A DNA stretch of 64,000 nt. Origin: Halosolutus halophilus (GTDB taxonomy: Archaea; Halobacteriota; Halobacteria; Halobacteriales; Natrialbaceae). Below the pieces are notes generated by a model. It ran no database searches. It was not told the origin of the DNA and saw only the letters and a program-made list of their open reading frames with translations. The DNA lies in assembly GCF_022869805.1 (NCBI RefSeq), contig NZ_CP094974.1, forward strand, positions 1,240,001 through 1,304,000, given 5' to 3'. Below, piece by piece: positions 2,927 to 9,571 of the stretch; position 1 is the first letter of the stretch, and every line of letters starts with the position of its first letter. Both the position numbers and the translations under genes were made by a program.

Positions 2927-3193
2927 ATGCCACGATACGAAGTCACCATCGAGAAGGAGGCCTGCGACGGCATCTTCGCCTGCCTGACCCGCGATCCGCG
3001 GTTCGTCGAGGGCGACGACGGTCTCGCGACGATCGAGCCCGGAGCGGATCCGGTCTACGACTGCGAAGGCACGGTCACGGACACCGACGATCGCGTCGTC
3101 GCGACGTTCGACGACGATCGGATCGACGAGGCGAGACAGGCCGCGGCGGCCTGTCCGACGGACGCGATCGTCGTCGAGGAGGCGGGCGAATGA
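2927..3193 (+). CDS. Small [3Fe-4S]-type ferredoxin in the cobalamin operon
   Basis: An 88-residue soluble ferredoxin. The cluster motif reads CDGIFAC followed near the C-terminus by CPTDAI. The second cysteine of the usual CxxCxxC is replaced by Ile, leaving the C-x5-C ... CP pattern expected for a [3Fe-4S] cluster. A further Cys sits mid-protein (VYDCEG) and could instead act as a fourth ligand. The start ATG at 2927 lies 2 bp after the cbiH stop, and the gene overlaps the next one by 4 bp. The position inside the operon suggests electron donation to a corrin-pathway step, such as cobalt reduction or a CbiH-type reaction; this is inferred from context only. Confidence 0.8.
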   Translation: MPRYEVTIEKEACDGIFACLTRDPRFVEGDDGLATIEPGADPVYDCEGTVTDTDDRVVATFDDDRIDEARQAAAACPTDAIVVEEAGE

Positions 3194-3903
3194 GCGACGT
3201 CGTAGCGGACGGGCGTGACCGCGAGATCGAGGTGCCCGCCGACCCGCTCGCGGGCCACCCTGCGACGGCGTACTTCTGGGGTCACGTCGCGGGCAGTGGC
3301 GAGGTGTCCAGTACAGGTATCGGCGTCGTCACCGGCGACGAGGAGTCGGCACAGGTACTCGCGGCGATCGCCGGCGGCGACGTCGAGCAAGAGACGACCA
3401 CTCGCGAGTACGCCCGCGACACATCGATTACTCGCACCGAAGACGAGTACACGCTCTCGATCGGCGCTAATGAGGGCGAGGACGACGACCCCGCCGGACT
3501 CCTCGGCCGCGGCGGCGGGATCGGCCTTCCAGTCGACGGACGGGGTAACTACCGCTTCGGGGCCTTCGCCGAGTACGATCGGGAACTGCTCCGGGGCCTG
3601 TTCGAGGGCTGTGGAACGATCTGTTTCAAGTCCTCCAGCGGCACTGTGGGAATCTCGTTCGTCCACGACGATCGCGACCTGCTCGAACTCGTCCAGGAGT
3701 TGATCGCCGACTGTCCGATTTCGGCCCCGATGGGCGACCTCTCGGAGACCTCCTCGGGTGGCTCCTGGTTCGGCATCGACGACGACGCCGCACCCGAGTT
3801 CGGAACGTGGCTGTACGAGAACTGCGAAGAGACCGGCCTGTTCGCACCGAGCCGCCGCAAACTCGAGCGGAGCCTCGAACGGGCCGAGTCTGACGACCCA
3901 TAG
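3190..3903 (+). CDS. Cobalamin-operon protein with two degenerate LAGLIDADG-like motifs
   Basis: A 237-residue protein without an assigned function. Two segments resemble LAGLIDADG helices: YFWGHVAGSGEVS near residue 26 and LLRGLFEGCGTICF near residue 136, each followed by strand-rich sequence and a helix (DRDLLELVQELIADCPI after the second). The acidic residue that coordinates the catalytic metal is Ser in the first motif and Cys in the second, so nuclease activity is not expected. The start overlaps the ferredoxin stop (ATGA), placing it firmly in the operon. By analogy with WhiA, a domesticated LAGLIDADG protein, it may bind nucleic acid, or it may be a pathway protein on the same scaffold. 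The fold assignment is my inference from motif spacing. Confidence 0.75.
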   Translation: MSDVVADGRDREIEVPADPLAGHPATAYFWGHVAGSGEVSSTGIGVVTGDEESAQVLAAIAGGDVEQETTTREYARDTSITRTEDEYTLSIGANEGEDDDPAGLLGRGGGIGLPVDGRGNYRFGAFAEYDRELLRGLFEGCGTICFKSSSGTVGISFVHDDRDLLELVQELIADCPISAPMGDLSETSSGGSWFGIDDDAAPEFGTWLYENCEETGLFAPSRRKLERSLERAESDDP

Positions 3904-3914
3904 CGTATTCCACG

Positions 3915-5138
3915 ATGAGCACACCCGACGACACCACGTCCACGACGTTCGACGACGAGGCAGTCCTGCTGGTGGGACACGGCTCCCGCAGGGAGAGGTC
4001 CAACGAACAGGTACGTGAACTGGCCGCCGACCTCGAGTCGCGCCTGGGAATCCCGGTCGACGCGGCGTTCCTCGAACTCGCGGAACCGGCGCTCGACGAT
4101 GCGTTCGCCGAACTCGCGACGATCGCCTCGCAAGTCACGGTCGTCCACTGTTCGCTGTTCGCCGCGAGCCACGTCAAGAACGACGTGCCGCTGGCGATCG
4201 ACCAGGCTCGCGCGGCCCACGACGTCGAGATCAACAACGGCTCGCACCTGGGGATCCACCCCGCGATCGTCGACCTGCTCGACGATCGGGCCGCCGCGGT
4301 CGAACGCGAACTCGGCGTCGATCGCGAGGCCGACGACGTCGCGGTCGTCCTCTGCGGGCGCGGGTCGAGCGATCCGGACGCGAACGGGGACGTCCACAAA
4401 CTGGCTCGCCTGCTGTACGAGGGACGCGACTTCGATCGCGTGGAGGCGTCGTTCGTCGGCGTGACGGAGCCGACGCTCGAGGAGACGCTGCACGGGCTCT
4501 CGAAACACCGGCCGGACGCGGTCGTCGTCCTGCCGTACATGCTCGGCGACGGCGTGCTCACCGGGCGCGTCCGCGACTGGACGGCGGACTTCGACGACGG
4601 CTATCCGTACGTCGACGCGCTGGCCGGCGATCCGCTCGGGACCGACTCGCGGCTGCTCGACGTCTTCGCCGATCGGTGGCAGGCGGCCCGGACGGGCAGC
4701 GTCGAAATGTCCTGTGATACCTGCAAGTACAAAGTCGACCTCGAGGGCTACGAGGAGGACGTCGGCGGCGCACGCGCGATGTTACGCGCGCTCGCCCATC
4801 AGGAGGCTCACGCCGATCGGGACGACGTCGACGACGAGCCGCACAGCCACGACGCGCCGGCGAACCACGTCGCGGTGTGTACGAACCGGACCTGCGCCGA
4901 GATGGGATCGCCAGCGGTGATCGAACGACTCCGGCAGGCGGCCCGCGACTCCGACCACTGCGACGCCCGCATCGCGCGATCGTCCTGTCTCGGTCGCTGC
5001 GGCGACGGGCCGATGGTCGCGGTCTATCCCGACGGGATCTGGTACGGCGACGTCGGCCCCGACGACGCCGAGCGGATCGTCGCCGACCACCTCGATCGCG
5101 ATCGGATCGTCGGCGATCTCGTCGATCAGACGCTGTAG
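3915..5138 (+). CDS. cbiX: Sirohydrochlorin cobaltochelatase CbiX (CbiXL-like) fused to a [2Fe-2S] thioredoxin-like ferredoxin
   Basis: A 407-residue multidomain protein that inserts cobalt into sirohydrochlorin at the start of anaerobic cobalamin synthesis. Residues 12-250 hold tandem chelatase halves. The first keeps VGHGSR and FAASHVKND histidines; the second has CGRGSSD and MLGDGVLTGR and lacks them, so one active site is expected. Residues 264-269 read MSCDTC, the MxCxxC iron-sulfur motif known from long CbiX (CbiXL). A His/Asp-rich linker follows. From about residue 315 there is a thioredoxin-like ferredoxin domain with VCTNRTC and SSCLGRC cysteines, DGIWYGDVGPDDA and a terminal helix. 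The ATG at 3915 lies 12 bp after the previous stop, so it is probably cotranscribed. Fusion of chelatase and ferredoxin suggests redox control or electron delivery at the cobalt step. Confidence 0.9.
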   Translation: MSTPDDTTSTTFDDEAVLLVGHGSRRERSNEQVRELAADLESRLGIPVDAAFLELAEPALDDAFAELATIASQVTVVHCSLFAASHVKNDVPLAIDQARAAHDVEINNGSHLGIHPAIVDLLDDRAAAVERELGVDREADDVAVVLCGRGSSDPDANGDVHKLARLLYEGRDFDRVEASFVGVTEPTLEETLHGLSKHRPDAVVVLPYMLGDGVLTGRVRDWTADFDDGYPYVDALAGDPLGTDSRLLDVFADRWQAARTGSVEMSCDTCKYKVDLEGYEEDVGGARAMLRALAHQEAHADRDDVDDEPHSHDAPANHVAVCTNRTCAEMGSPAVIERLRQAARDSDHCDARIARSSCLGRCGDGPMVAVYPDGIWYGDVGPDDAERIVADHLDRDRIVGDLVDQTL

Positions 5139-5193: not shown

Positions 5194-5565
5194 ATGAGCT
5201 GTCACGAAATCGAAGCGCTACGACTCGGACTGATGACCGTCCTCGGCGTCGGGGACGTTAGCACCCGCGACCACGCGGAGAAGGAACTCGAGGGCCACCT
5301 CGAGGGACCGATCGAGGGCCTCGCAAACGCCGAGAGCCTCACCGAGATCCAGCGCCACCTCGACGCGGCGCTGGTCGACCTCGAAGCGGAGGTCGCGACG
5401 ATGGATAGCCAGGACCCGGCGTACGACTACACCCGCGGCAGATTGCTCGAGGTCCGCAACGCCGAGCGGACGGTCCGGCGACTGATCGTGCAGGGGGAGA
5501 GCATCGTCGACGGCCTCGGCGAGACCCACGACACCCTCCACGAAACGTTCCCCGTAGCGGAGTGA
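5194..5565 (+). CDS. DUF3209 family protein
   Basis: A 123-residue protein that begins MSCHEIEALRLGLMTVLGV and is almost entirely helical in character (long runs of Leu/Glu/Arg/His without membrane segments). I recognise it as the haloarchaeal DUF3209 family, which has no known biochemical role but repeatedly accompanies cobalamin genes. The early Cys-His pair (SCHE) could be a metal ligand, but that is speculative. The gene lies 55 bp after cbiX and its stop is followed 2 bp later by the beta-propeller ATG, so the three are probably one transcript. A helical accessory subunit or cobalt/corrinoid carrier would fit the position. Confidence 0.75.
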   Translation: MSCHEIEALRLGLMTVLGVGDVSTRDHAEKELEGHLEGPIEGLANAESLTEIQRHLDAALVDLEAEVATMDSQDPAYDYTRGRLLEVRNAERTVRRLIVQGESIVDGLGETHDTLHETFPVAE

Positions 5566-5567
5566 CC

Positions 5568-6878
5568 ATGGCGAGATCCGAATCCGACACCGAAGCCGGG
5601 ACCGATCGCGTCGGGGAATTCCGTCGAATCCCCCTCGGCGACGTCGAGACCGCGCGGAGTCGCCACATGTGGACCCGATCGGCCGTCCACGTCACCGACG
5701 AGGTCGTCCTCGCGGGGGAGTGGGATGGCACCGTCACCGCGTTCGATGCCGGCTCGCTCGAGACGCGGTGGACGACTGTCCACCCCGATCACGCGGTCGG
5801 GATCGCGACGCTCGCTGGCGGGGACGGGACCGAGAACGTGAGCGACGCCGACACGGTCGTCGTCGCCGGTCGCGGTGACACGGGGGCGATCGTGGCCTAC
5901 GACGCCGAAACCGGGAGCCAGCAGTGGCGCTACGACACCGTCGACGACGTCGGCGACCCGATCATGAATACCGTCTTTTACCTGCCGTACGTCGTCGCGA
6001 TCGAGACTGCCGGAACGGGCGAGGACGCACGGTTCTACGCCGCGACTCGACGGTACGAACGGGATGGCGATGATCGGCGCTGGTACAGCACCGTCCTCGC
6101 GATCGGCGTCGACGGTACCGTTCGCTGGCGGTACGAGACCGACGCGTCCCCGATCGCGATCGATCTCGACGACGCCGGAGAACAGTTGGCTGTCGGCTAC
6201 AACCGCTGTCTGGGCGACCACGATCACGGGCTGGTCGTCCTCGACGCGGCGACCGGCGACCCCGAGTGGTCGTGGGACCCCGGCACGCCGTGCGATCGGC
6301 GCGTCGGTGACGTTTCCTTCGACGGCGATCGGATCGCGGTCGCGAGCCACGGGGACAAGCGCGGCTACCTGCTCGGGCCGGGCGGTGCCGAGCAGTGGCG
6401 GGTCGACCTCGGGGTCGAGACGGACGTCGACGGGGAGACGCTGTACGCCTATCCGAACCACGTTTTCGCCAACGACGGCCGCGTCGCGTTCGTGACCGGC
6501 AACACCTACGCTGAAGAGAGTCGGGAGACCGAGAACCGGCATCCGAACGAACACCGCATCGCGGCCTTCGACGTCGAGGGGGACCCCGCGTGGGACGACG
6601 CGGTCCGCGGCTTCGTCCACGGACTCGACGTCGGCGATGGGACGATCGTCGCGCCCTGCGCGCAGAATTTCCGAGTGCGGGACCCCGAGACTCACGCCGT
6701 CCGCTGGTTCGACCTCGAGACGGGAACCGGCGGCGACGGTCGATTCGACGGAATCGCGACCGCGGCCGCCGTCCATGACGGGACGGTCGCGGTCATCGAG
6801 GAACCCGTCGGGTACCACGACGAGGGCGAGACGCGCGGCGAGTACGTGCTTCACGTCGGCCCGATCGAAAGTAACTGA
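5568..6878 (+). CDS. PQQ-type beta-propeller protein at the end of the cobalamin operon
   Basis: A 436-residue protein built of repeated strand blocks with a Trp-containing repeat of the PQQ/BamB type: VVLAGEWDGTVTAFDAGSLE, AIVAYDAETGSQQWRYDT, GLVVLDAATGDPEWSWDPG, and others spaced about 45-60 residues apart. No signal peptide or membrane segment is visible, so it is predicted to be cytosolic, unlike BamB. A GTG at 5562 overlaps the DUF3209 stop, but the ATG at 5568 is the better start. Its role in cobalamin synthesis is unknown; a scaffold for the pathway enzymes is one option. The N-terminal RIPLGDVETARSRHMWTRS segment comes before the propeller. Transcription probably ends in the following 160-bp gap. 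Confidence 0.75.
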   Translation: MARSESDTEAGTDRVGEFRRIPLGDVETARSRHMWTRSAVHVTDEVVLAGEWDGTVTAFDAGSLETRWTTVHPDHAVGIATLAGGDGTENVSDADTVVVAGRGDTGAIVAYDAETGSQQWRYDTVDDVGDPIMNTVFYLPYVVAIETAGTGEDARFYAATRRYERDGDDRRWYSTVLAIGVDGTVRWRYETDASPIAIDLDDAGEQLAVGYNRCLGDHDHGLVVLDAATGDPEWSWDPGTPCDRRVGDVSFDGDRIAVASHGDKRGYLLGPGGAEQWRVDLGVETDVDGETLYAYPNHVFANDGRVAFVTGNTYAEESRETENRHPNEHRIAAFDVEGDPAWDDAVRGFVHGLDVGDGTIVAPCAQNFRVRDPETHAVRWFDLETGTGGDGRFDGIATAAAVHDGTVAVIEEPVGYHDEGETRGEYVLHVGPIESN

Positions 6879-7158
6879 CCCGTTCGATCGTCGCGGGAGT
6901 CCGTTTCACTCTCGACACGGTCACCCGTTCCGATAGCCGATCTATCAGGCCGTCGAGGAGGTCCGGATCTCGAGTTTTTCGAACAGTCGCACACGCAAGG
7001 GAAACCACCACAACGCTGTCTCTCGTCTGTGTTCTCGAATAATGACAGCGGGACTAGAAGATAACGGCAGCGAGGAATGTCCGGATCCCGTGGAGGTCGG
7101 ATCCACCTCGAGCCGTCACGACGAGGCCGATCGGTGGGCCCAGTCTTCCCGACGGGTA

Positions 7159-8274
7159 ATGACCGACGGAGGGCAGGCACAGACCGAGCCTGAGGCAGAC
7201 GACGAGAGCGAGGCAGACGACGAACAGGAGGCCGAAGAAGTCGAAGAAGAGACAGAAGAGGAGGCTGATGAAGCTGAAGAGGAGACCGAAGCAGCCGAGG
7301 AGGAAGCTGAAGAGGAGAGCGAAGAATCGGAGGAAGAGACTGCGGAGGAAGCCGAAGAAGAGGGAGAAGACCAGGCCGAGGAAGAAGCTGAAGAAGCCGA
7401 AGAAGCCGAAGAAGCCGAAGAAGCCGAAGAAGCCGAAGAAGCCGAAGAAGCCGAAGAAGAGGGAGAAGACGAGCCTGAGGAAGCCGAAGAAGAAGCCGAA
7501 GAGGGACTTGACGTAACCGGGGACCTCGTCGAAGACGATCGCGCGGAGGGTCACGCCGACGACGCCGAAACCGTGTACGAGGGTGACGACGCCTCCGGCG
7601 TTTTGCACCTCGATCTCGACGGTCTGTTCTTGGATCTGCTCGGGCTCGAAGTCAACCTGAACCCGGTCACGCTCGACGTTTCGGCCCGGCCCGGCGGGGG
7701 CAATTTACTCGGGAACCTGCTCTCCGCCGTAACAGGGCTACTGGATGGCCCGAGCGCGGTGCTGGACAAGGTAACGTCGCTGCTGAGCAAACCGATGGAG
7801 TTCCTCGGATCGCTGACGGACAAACTCAAGTCGGTACTCGGCAAGCCGAAGGAGTGGCTCGGGTCCCTGTCGGAGAAAGTAAAGAGCGTGCTCAGCAACT
7901 TGCTCGGGAAACCGGGAGCGTTCCTCAGGAGTCTCTTCGGCCGAGGTGAAGCGGAGGATCTCGAAGAAGAAGCGGAGGAAGAACCGGCCGAGGAGGAAGA
8001 ACCGGCCGAGGAGGAAGAACCGGCCGAGGAGGAAGCGGAGGCAGAACCTGGACGGATCGCCTCGGCGGTCCAGTGGGTCCGATCGAAACTGTCGGGTGCG
8101 GCGGGCTGGCTGAAGGAGAAACTCGTCGGTCTCGTTCCCGAGTTGCCGATCGAGGAGGTCATCGCGACGATCGTTCGCAGCGCGATCCGACAACTCCTCG
8201 AGCAACTCGAACCGGAGAGCGAACGCGAGGAAGGGGACACACAGGAGCAAGAGGGCGCACCAGCGGAAGCATAA
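7159..8274 (+). CDS. Acidic Glu-Glu-Ala repeat protein with amphipathic-helix repeats (unknown function)
   Basis: About 371 residues (410 if the upstream in-frame ATG at 7042 is used; that extra stretch has atypical composition, so I prefer 7159). Order of parts: a Glu/Ala low-complexity region with exact EEA repeats; a short segment DLDGLFLDLLGLEVNLNPV leading into GGGNLLGNLLSAVTGLLD, which resembles a motif I recall from many bacterial proteins of unknown function; three amphipathic repeats (KPMEFLGSLTDKLKSVL, KPKEWLGSLSEKVKSVL, KPGAFLRSLF); a second acidic block of EEEPA repeats; and a C-terminal amphipathic helical domain (IASAVQWVRSKLSGAAGWL, then PIEEVIATIVRSAI). No signal peptide is seen. 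It heads a co-directional cluster of similarly acidic proteins; a surface- or membrane-associated structural role is an inference. Confidence 0.72.
   Translation: MTDGGQAQTEPEADDESEADDEQEAEEVEEETEEEADEAEEETEAAEEEAEEESEESEEETAEEAEEEGEDQAEEEAEEAEEAEEAEEAEEAEEAEEAEEEGEDEPEEAEEEAEEGLDVTGDLVEDDRAEGHADDAETVYEGDDASGVLHLDLDGLFLDLLGLEVNLNPVTLDVSARPGGGNLLGNLLSAVTGLLDGPSAVLDKVTSLLSKPMEFLGSLTDKLKSVLGKPKEWLGSLSEKVKSVLSNLLGKPGAFLRSLFGRGEAEDLEEEAEEEPAEEEEPAEEEEPAEEEAEAEPGRIASAVQWVRSKLSGAAGWLKEKLVGLVPELPIEEVIATIVRSAIRQLLEQLEPESEREEGDTQEQEGAPAEA
7381..7452 (+). repeat. 9-bp tandem repeat, (GAAGAAGCC)n encoding EEA
   Basis: One variant unit ending in GCT (7381-7389) is followed by seven perfect GAAGAAGCC units from 7390 to 7452. 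Repeats this exact are prone to slippage in steps of three residues, so copy number may differ between strains without breaking the frame. Confidence 0.95.
7981..8034 (+). repeat. 18-bp tandem repeat, three perfect copies
   Basis: The unit GAACCGGCCGAGGAGGAA occurs three times in a row (7981-7998, 7999-8016, 8017-8034) and encodes EPAEEE repeats in the second acidic block. Nucleotide identity, not only amino-acid similarity, indicates recent duplication. Confidence 0.95.
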
Positions 8275-8276
8275 CC

Positions 8277-8744
8277 ATGAGTCAGGAATCCGAATCGATG
8301 ACCCAGCGGATCGACTACGAATCGATCACCGAGAACATCAACCTCAACGAACTGATCGAGGGAACCCAGTGGGAAGACCAGATCGACGAGGACGAACCCC
8401 TCGGCGAGGCACTCGGTGCGATGATCGGAGCAGTTATCGGCCGAAAGCTCGGCGAGACCCTCGGTCGATCGATCGGCCACCTCGTCGTCGAGGAACTCTT
8501 CGGGAAGAAAGACGAGGCCGAGGCGGACGAGGCGGAAGAAGCTGAGGAGGAAGCGGCGGAAAGCGAGGAAGAAGAGACCGACGAGGCCGAGGAGGAAGCG
8601 GCCGAAGAAGCCGAAGCGGAGACCGAAGACGAGAGTGACGAGGCGGAAGCCGAGGAGGAAGAAGACGCTGCCGACGAGAGCGACGAAACAGCGGCCGAAG
8701 CCGAGGCGGAAGAGGACGACAACGACAGTGATGAGGAGGCCTAA
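8277..8744 (+). CDS. Glycine-zipper protein with acidic tail (first paralogue)
   Basis: A 155-residue protein. Residues 1-40 include INLNELIEGTQWEDQIDEDE. Then residues 43-67 place Gly at 43, 47, 51, 55, 59, 63 and 67, seven glycines with exact four-residue spacing, in the core GRKLGETLGRSIG. From residue 77 onward the protein is nearly pure Glu/Ala/Asp. Glycine zippers pack helices tightly, often in membranes or oligomers; here the hydrophobic part (ALGAMIGAVIG) is short, so a peripheral or oligomeric assembly is as likely as a true transmembrane helix. The ATG at 8277 comes 2 bp after the upstream stop. A clear paralogue with the same zipper core follows. The function is unknown and no database family name comes to mind. 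Confidence 0.75.
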   Translation: MSQESESMTQRIDYESITENINLNELIEGTQWEDQIDEDEPLGEALGAMIGAVIGRKLGETLGRSIGHLVVEELFGKKDEAEADEAEEAEEEAAESEEEETDEAEEEAAEEAEAETEDESDEAEAEEEEDAADESDETAAEAEAEEDDNDSDEEA

Positions 8745-8797
8745 CTCCGTGACAACGCACCGTTCCATCGACGGCCGATCGACGCGAGGTGACGACG

Positions 8798-9571
8798 ATG
8801 AGTAACGAGTCGGGGCTGACGGACGTCGTGACTGAAGAGGTCACGAACCAGGTCGGAATCTCCGAACTGCTCGGCGACGGCAACCTCGAAGACGAGATCG
8901 ACGGCGACGAGATCGGGGCCGCAGTCGGTCGCAAGTTCGGCGAGCAGATCGGCCGGGAACTTGGCGGCTCGATCGGCCGCGAGGTGCACGAGGCGCTCGC
9001 CAGGGGAGTCGAGGAGGGAAAGAGCCTCTCGGAACTCCGATCCGACGTCACGTCGGGGGTCCGAGACGGGGTCGGCGACGCACTGGACGAAATCGGCGGG
9101 CGGGAGGCCCTCGAATCGCTAGCCGGGTCGGCCGCCGACGGGGGCCGGCTGGGAGGGCTGCTCGATCGAGACGAGTCAGCGGGGGAGCAGGAGGTCGAGG
9201 ATGAGGAAGAAGCGGAGGAAGACGAAGCGACCGAAGATGAGGAAGAAACGGAGGAGGACGAAGCGAGCGAAGACGAGGAAGAACCGTCGGAAGGCGAGGA
9301 GTCGGCAGACGAGGCGGACAAAGCCGAACCCGATTCCGAACCGTCGGCCGAAGACCTCGAAGATCTCAGGCGGGAAACGCTTTCGGACTTCCTCGGGGTG
9401 ATGTCCTACCAGGACCTCCAGTCGATCGCCAAGGACGTCGACGTCAAGGCGAACCTCAGCCGGGAGGAGATGACGGACGAGATCATCGAGACGGTGTCGG
9501 GCAAGGAGGACGAGTCGGAAGGCACCGATGGGGAATCGGCGGACGATGAGGCGACACAGGAAGCGGAGTAA
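8798..9571 (+). CDS. Glycine-zipper protein with acidic linker and SAP/Rho-N-like C-terminus (second paralogue)
   Basis: A 257-residue protein paralogous to the preceding one: VGISELLGDGNLEDEIDGDE precedes a zipper with Gly at residues 40, 44, 48, 52, 56 and 60 (core GRKFGEQIGRELGGSIG). A helical segment EVHEALARGVEEGKSLSEL follows, then a Glu/Asp-rich linker, then a compact C-terminal module MSYQDLQSIAKDVDVKANL with SREEMTDEIIETVS, which looks like the helix-extension-helix of SAP or Rho N-terminal domains that bind nucleic acid. The ATG at 8798 is chosen because GAGGTGA at 8785-8791 is a good Shine-Dalgarno; a GTG at 8789 lies inside that site. The combination of zipper, acidic spacer and possible nucleic-acid-binding module is unusual. 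Function unknown. Confidence 0.75.
   Translation: MSNESGLTDVVTEEVTNQVGISELLGDGNLEDEIDGDEIGAAVGRKFGEQIGRELGGSIGREVHEALARGVEEGKSLSELRSDVTSGVRDGVGDALDEIGGREALESLAGSAADGGRLGGLLDRDESAGEQEVEDEEEAEEDEATEDEEETEEDEASEDEEEPSEGEESADEADKAEPDSEPSAEDLEDLRRETLSDFLGVMSYQDLQSIAKDVDVKANLSREEMTDEIIETVSGKEDESEGTDGESADDEATQEAE

Follow-up and report, generated by a model that had tools for sequence, protein, structure and literature searches.

We know of only a few domesticated LAGLIDADG proteins, such as WhiA and yeast HO, and of none in a cofactor pathway. Among solved structures, that of WhiA (DUF199; 3hyi, 3hyj, 8dy7) is closest to the protein described here, a product of a cobalamin operon of the haloarchaeon Halosolutus halophilus. 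Both are degenerate and non-cutting, but WhiA has a C-terminal helix-turn-helix, whereas the haloarchaeal protein ends after the second repeat. Furthermore, WhiA belongs to Gram-positive bacteria and Mollicutes, while in the samples that we searched our protein turned up in Halobacteria alone. The monomeric archaeal LAGLIDADG homing endonucleases I-DmoI and I-Tsp061I resemble it in their two-repeat fold and similar size; they differ in that here the paired catalytic acids are lost, there is no intron or intein, and the gene is fixed in an operon.

In Haloferax volcanii, the corresponding slot of the cobalamin cluster is, by locus numbering (HVO_B0054 is cbiX1, HVO_B0057 is cbiH2), that of HVO_B0055, which a 2021 paper labels "function unassigned" (Pfeiffer and Dyall-Smith, PMC8305020). 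Together with HVO_B0052, HVO_B0053, and HVO_B0056, it was proposed as a candidate for the consecutive missing steps EC 2.1.1.195 and EC 1.3.1.106 (PMC8305020). A search by locus tag found no paper besides this one in the library searched, in agreement with the first-pass annotation of our locus, which knew of no described role. Since the numbering and the gene order in Haloferax elongans (L093), where fdx and cbiX flank the LAGLIDADG-fold gene, agree, synteny indicates that our gene is the orthologue of HVO_B0055. In annotated plasmid records, its relatives appear as "cobalamin biosynthesis protein" or "hypothetical protein." A search of the main text of PMC8305020 found neither the fold nor the distribution nor any link to the CbiX tail; new here are the distribution of the gene in relation to CbiG, its mutual exclusion with a His-tailed CbiX, and the CTAnnnCAAnCnnAATTGTTTTA box.

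Two systems are related in function rather than in fold. The His-rich C-terminal region of Bacillus megaterium CbiXL, proposed to serve in metal storage and delivery (PMC7689651), is the suggested functional counterpart of our protein, and a similar tail is present on CbiX of haloarchaea that lack the gene. However, it is part of the chelatase itself and has no homology to the LAGLIDADG-fold protein. The cobalt metallochaperone CobW (COG0523) has a role of the kind proposed below, cobalt supply for B12, but it is a GTPase of another fold and serves the cobalt-late pathway.

The gene occupies a constant slot in the cobalamin operon

The window analyzed here is a stretch of 64,000 nucleotides (contig NZ_CP094974.1, positions 1,240,001 to 1,304,000); positions are given within it, and the features described between 77 and 6878 lie on the plus strand. 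The open reading frame at 3190-3903 is a real gene, which runs from ATG to TAG and encodes 237 amino acids. Its ATG overlaps the stop codon of the 4Fe-4S-type ferredoxin gene fdx (2927-3193; Fer4_15, E = 5.5e-14) in the sequence ATGA, and the cobaltochelatase gene cbiX (3915-5138) begins 11 bases after its end. The product of the latter matched CbiX in two stretches and contains an MSCDTC (MXCXXC) motif and a 2Fe-2S thioredoxin-like domain (4860-5087; PF01257, E = 3e-7), the position of which corresponds to that of the His-rich tail in gene-less genomes. The genes cbiF, cbiL, and cbiT lie 5′ of the window start and are followed within the window by cbiG (77-1075; CbiG_N and CbiG_C matches in Pfam), cbiH1 (1072-1953; start set at the ATG overlapping the cbiG stop), and cbiH2 (1968-2924), the last two named by order after PMC8305020. 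Downstream of cbiX are the gene of a DUF3209 protein (5194-5565; E = 2.3e-49) and a PQQ-like beta-propeller gene (5562-6878; same annotation in locus L223), the last gene of the conserved module.

The order fdx, LAGLIDADG-fold gene, cbiX was found in 80/80 loci from public genome records. The first-pass annotation had placed the gene in overlap with the ferredoxin start-stop, between ferredoxin and cbiX, and had taken it for a member of the cobalamin operon rather than a selfish element. Both statements hold: homing endonuclease genes reside in introns or inteins or are mobile and free-standing, while this gene keeps one and the same operon slot in all 80 loci.

Farther downstream (7042-9571), three adjoining genes encode very glutamate-rich, low-complexity products, two of which share a glycine-rich motif like GAxxGRKxGExxGRxxG.

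The protein is predicted to have a two-repeat LAGLIDADG fold

The 237-amino-acid protein matched Pfam LAGLIDADG_3 below the cut-off (E = 0.0047; residues 128-172) and had no match in NCBIfam. When 52 homologues were scanned singly (E up to 1), 33 matched LAGLIDADG_3, the best at 4.5e-5. PHROGs yielded a single weak endonuclease match (E = 0.38), and a PDB sequence search with the family profile yielded a chance match only, so a comparison of folds was needed. An AlphaFold2 model based on 52 aligned relatives (pLDDT 86.4, pTM 0.84) has helices at residues 24-36 and 123-141, each leading into strands. In a Foldseek search against the PDB, ranks 1-49 were all LAGLIDADG proteins: WhiA held ranks 1 and 2 (3hyi, 3hyj; best 1.9e-6), followed by I-DmoI (7e-6), I-Tsp061I, and bI3 maturase. 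The TM-scores lay in a moderate range (0.4-0.55), as is to be expected when relatives are distant. Among the viral matches with names, many were homing endonucleases, LAGLIDADG proteins, or proteins with an intein.

Since the Pfam matches, the AlphaFold2 model, the Foldseek ranks, and the viral matches agree, the predicted two-repeat LAGLIDADG fold is well supported. With two LAGLIDADG helices, each opening a helix-and-strand repeat, the protein belongs to the superfamily. Thus, the two helix motifs from which the first-pass annotation had recognized a two-repeat LAGLIDADG protein both correspond to LAGLIDADG-fold helices according to AlphaFold2 and Foldseek, and the structural comparison brought up WhiA and I-DmoI as best PDB matches, so that the unrelated fold which would have refuted the first-pass annotation did not appear.

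The catalytic acid pair is missing throughout the family

In homing endonucleases, each of the two LAGLIDADG helices ends in an acidic metal ligand. According to AlphaFold2 and conservation, these slots are Ser36 at the end of the first helix (residues 24-36; 3259-3297) and Cys141 at the end of the second (residues 123-141; 3556-3612). Counted over 66 nonredundant homologues, the N-terminal slot is occupied by Ser in 38, Asp in 21, and Gly in 4, and the C-terminal slot by Cys in 65. The acid pair is therefore missing throughout the family, while roughly one third of its members retain one acid. This refines the earlier view that the metal-binding acid had been replaced by Ser and Cys: the loss of the pair stands, but the first slot is variable. 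Invariant in all 66 homologues were Cys145 (codon 3622-3624), Arg135, Glu139, Trp30, Trp193, Asp198, Tyr209, and Lys224. We conclude that this two-repeat LAGLIDADG protein has been domesticated, is nuclease-dead, and is linked to B12 synthesis.

The gene co-occurs with de novo B12 synthesis

Of 292 Halobacteria genomes, 146 have the LAGLIDADG-fold family and 151 have CbiG. All listed carriers of the gene are CbiG-positive, and the gene was absent from all 141 CbiG-negative genomes. A larger draw added 59 CbiG-positive genomes, 4 of which had been matched earlier; of the other 55, 52 matched. Altogether, the gene is present in 202/210 CbiG-positive haloarchaea, and its co-occurrence with de novo B12 synthesis is strict. 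In a phylum-wide search, all matches among those listed were in genomes of the window's order; all carriers found fall, together with the window's genome, in this one order, and the named public-record loci are from Halobacteria.

In two genomes, G069 and G534 (L175, L222), the gene is present, no ferredoxin match was obtained between it and cbiH2, and the CbiG matches are weak and partial only.

The gene and a His-tailed CbiX are mutually exclusive

Eight CbiG-positive genomes lack the gene: G015, G047, G063, G045, G286, G538, G579, and G539. Each of the eight has a CbiX in which a long His-rich tail follows the MSC/MPC-D-x-C motif. By comparison, of the 185 CbiX ends that were parsed from loci with the gene (some genomes being counted twice), not one reached the His threshold, and the 2Fe-2S domain was found there instead. 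Only one long CbiX per genome was found when 12 gene-positive genomes were searched in full, and the same held for 7 others. Three of the eight gene-less genomes were found, among the 55 further genomes, after the prediction had been written down, and all three have a His-tailed CbiX. The LAGLIDADG-fold gene and the His-tailed CbiX are thus mutually exclusive, which suggests an exchangeable function.

In G015, a second, His-tailed cbiX occupies the exact slot between fdx and cbiX (L141, 11703-12644); its genus-mates G120 and G192 have the LAGLIDADG-fold gene in this very slot. Only in G015 was the gene exchanged alone. In a CbiG tree, six gene-less operons group as a single lineage whose gene set is reduced, G015 being a separate event; in a CbiX tree, G539 groups with G286. 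Accordingly, the independent evolutionary contrasts behind the exclusion are two (one operon lineage and G015), not eight. The reduced lineage changes several genes together, since it is also without fdx, the DUF3209 gene, the beta-propeller gene, and the 2Fe-2S domain of CbiX.

Haloarchaeal cobalamin operons thus also come in a second type with fewer genes, represented by this lineage (L142, L143, L144, L145, L220, L221). A gene-by-gene reading showed that L142, L144, and L145 extend from cbiX to cbiF/cbiL without fdx, the LAGLIDADG-fold gene, and the DUF3209 and propeller genes; cbiT of these compact operons was identified by similarity. A similarity search revealed the same reduced set in L143, L220, and L221, with cbiX at a distance in the latter two. 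Three genomes with the reduced operon (G047, G063, and G045) have no COX1 and may be anaerobes. A link of the gene to aerobic life was considered and dropped: all three B12-making genomes without COX1 are gene-less, yet 5/8 gene-less genomes have COX1, and therefore aerobic life does not explain the pattern.

A proposed role at cobalt insertion

Because of the distribution of the gene and of the His-tailed CbiX, we favor the cobaltochelatase step. Our best guess, offered tentatively, is that the protein is a nuclease-dead accessory of this step in haloarchaeal cobalamin synthesis. It would help CbiX to obtain or choose Co(II), as a metallochaperone or as a chelatase partner, and would do the job that the His-rich tail of CbiX does in the few gene-less relatives. 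This tail probably binds cobalt. From the exclusion we infer an equivalent function with cobalt as the ligand, perhaps at the old metal site, which now ends in the near-invariant Cys. More speculative, and in our judgment doubtful, is the full conversion of the catalytic metal site to a thiolate-bearing cobalt site, which would make the protein the cobalt-supply partner of the cobaltochelatase, evolutionarily interchangeable with the His-rich tail of CbiX. We know of no LAGLIDADG metallochaperone, and this counts against a cobalt accessory. So does the finding that cobalt insertion was unaffected when the C-terminal region of CbiXL was deleted (PMC7689651).

A conserved upstream box and alternative explanations

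A very conserved box, CTAnnnCAAnCnnAATTGTTTTA, is located 5′ of the cobalamin operon in 69/80 named loci. It was matched 73 times with up to 2 mismatches in the 1.27 Mb of the 80 loci, and 0 times in shuffled copies of 40 loci; the mononucleotide shuffle is a weak control, and the conserved position before a start codon speaks for itself. In our genome, the box (L147, 7631-7653; contig C1, about 1237631-1237653) lies some 2.4 kb before the window start. It is positioned about 20 to 25 bases 5′ of the cbiT start or, where the operon is split, before cbiH1, and in L142/L143 it also precedes cobalt-transport-like genes. It looks like an operator or promoter of the haloarchaeal cobalamin regulon. 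It was also found, with 1 to 3 mismatches, before the operon in 7/7 gene-less clusters examined. Since the box is kept with or without the LAGLIDADG-fold gene, its regulator is therefore not the LAGLIDADG-fold protein, or not this protein alone.

These data bear on a WhiA-like transcription regulator, which ranks next after the cobalt-insertion accessory and which we consider possible, if on the unlikely side. Such a protein would contact promoter DNA or RNA polymerase through its saddle-shaped sheet or through a partner such as the neighboring Fe-S ferredoxin and tune the cobalamin genes. WhiA is the best structural match; it does not cut DNA but serves as a LAGLIDADG transcription factor together with the Fe-S protein WhiB (8dy7). 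Moreover, R72, R82, R135, K147, and K224 are conserved basic residues, and a second, unnamed activator of the cob/cbi genes besides TrmB was inferred in Halobacterium (PMC3794607). However, of the LAGLIDADG and helix-turn-helix domains of WhiA, our protein has the former only (LAGLIDADG_3 being the sole domain in Pfam), and neither Pfam nor AlphaFold2 revealed a helix-turn-helix. Its net charge of -31 also speaks against a regulator, although it is in itself ordinary for a haloarchaeal protein, and the swap of a regulator for a His-tailed chelatase is not obviously expected. A riboswitch link was dropped, as Rfam gave no match to a known riboswitch family in the operon stretch, box included. 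The operon regulator proposed in the first-pass annotation has so far not been borne out, and regulation of the box by this protein is disfavored by its presence in genomes with and without the gene.

Two further readings keep the protein within the pathway. As a tetrapyrrole-binding escort or scaffold, it would hold sirohydrochlorin or a cobalt-corrin intermediate between enzymes on a concave sheet with conserved Arg, Lys, and Trp. Consistent with this are several basic and aromatic residues that vary little or not at all (R72, R82, R122, R135, K147, W193) and the constant slot between ferredoxin and cbiX (80/80 loci), but the residues were placed on the sheet by secondary structure, not by coordinates, and we consider the idea improbable. 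A still smaller chance is given to an enzyme that fills the gap of the CbiD methyltransferase (EC 2.1.1.195) or the CbiJ reductase (EC 1.3.1.106). The gap exists, as CbiD was found in 0/292 and CbiJ above the cut-off in 0/292 Halobacteria, and the gene is one of the four unassigned genes of the cobalamin cluster (PMC8305020). However, no methyltransferase or reductase is known to have a LAGLIDADG fold, and a Pfam scan of the protein gave no match to PF01888 (CbiD) or PF02571 (CbiJ). Furthermore, the same gaps occur in the three gene-less operons for which every gene was read, and which have known cbi/cob genes only there, three further members of the reduced lineage are without the LAGLIDADG-fold gene, fdx, and the DUF3209 gene in the same stretch, and G015 also manages without the LAGLIDADG-fold gene; 7/8 gene-less clusters, as read, run the same pathway without CbiD and CbiJ. 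That gene-less operons share the gap argues against the gene filling it, and together with the CbiD/CbiJ searches this disfavors a gap-filling enzyme. Finally, the degenerate catalytic motifs would suit a decaying homing endonuclease remnant kept in the operon by chance, but to this we assign practically no probability. The open frame and the invariant residues are conserved across whole families of Halobacteria, the gene is present in 202 of the 210 B12-making genomes, and its losses are confined to cases in which the pathway was lost too or the gene was replaced; this conservation therefore refutes a decaying remnant.

Implications of a possible cobalt-insertion accessory

A published candidate for the missing haloarchaeal B12 steps now has a fold, and gap filling is unlikely to be its function. 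The cobalt-insertion role that we prefer is testable and comes with a natural exchange partner, the His-tailed CbiX in the same slot. If it is true, a DNA-cutting fold has been turned into a metal-handling protein, and the finding would bear on how B12-making archaea put cobalt into the right tetrapyrrole.

One divergent homologue (30% identity) was found outside the cobalamin cluster, in G046 (L146, 8826-9422), beside a rhodanese-like gene; CbiX and DUF3209 of this genome are encoded on a third contig (L169). The homologue is apparently flanked on both sides by genes of cation-efflux (CDF)-like transporters. Judged from these neighbors, its location would fit a metal role, as one case.
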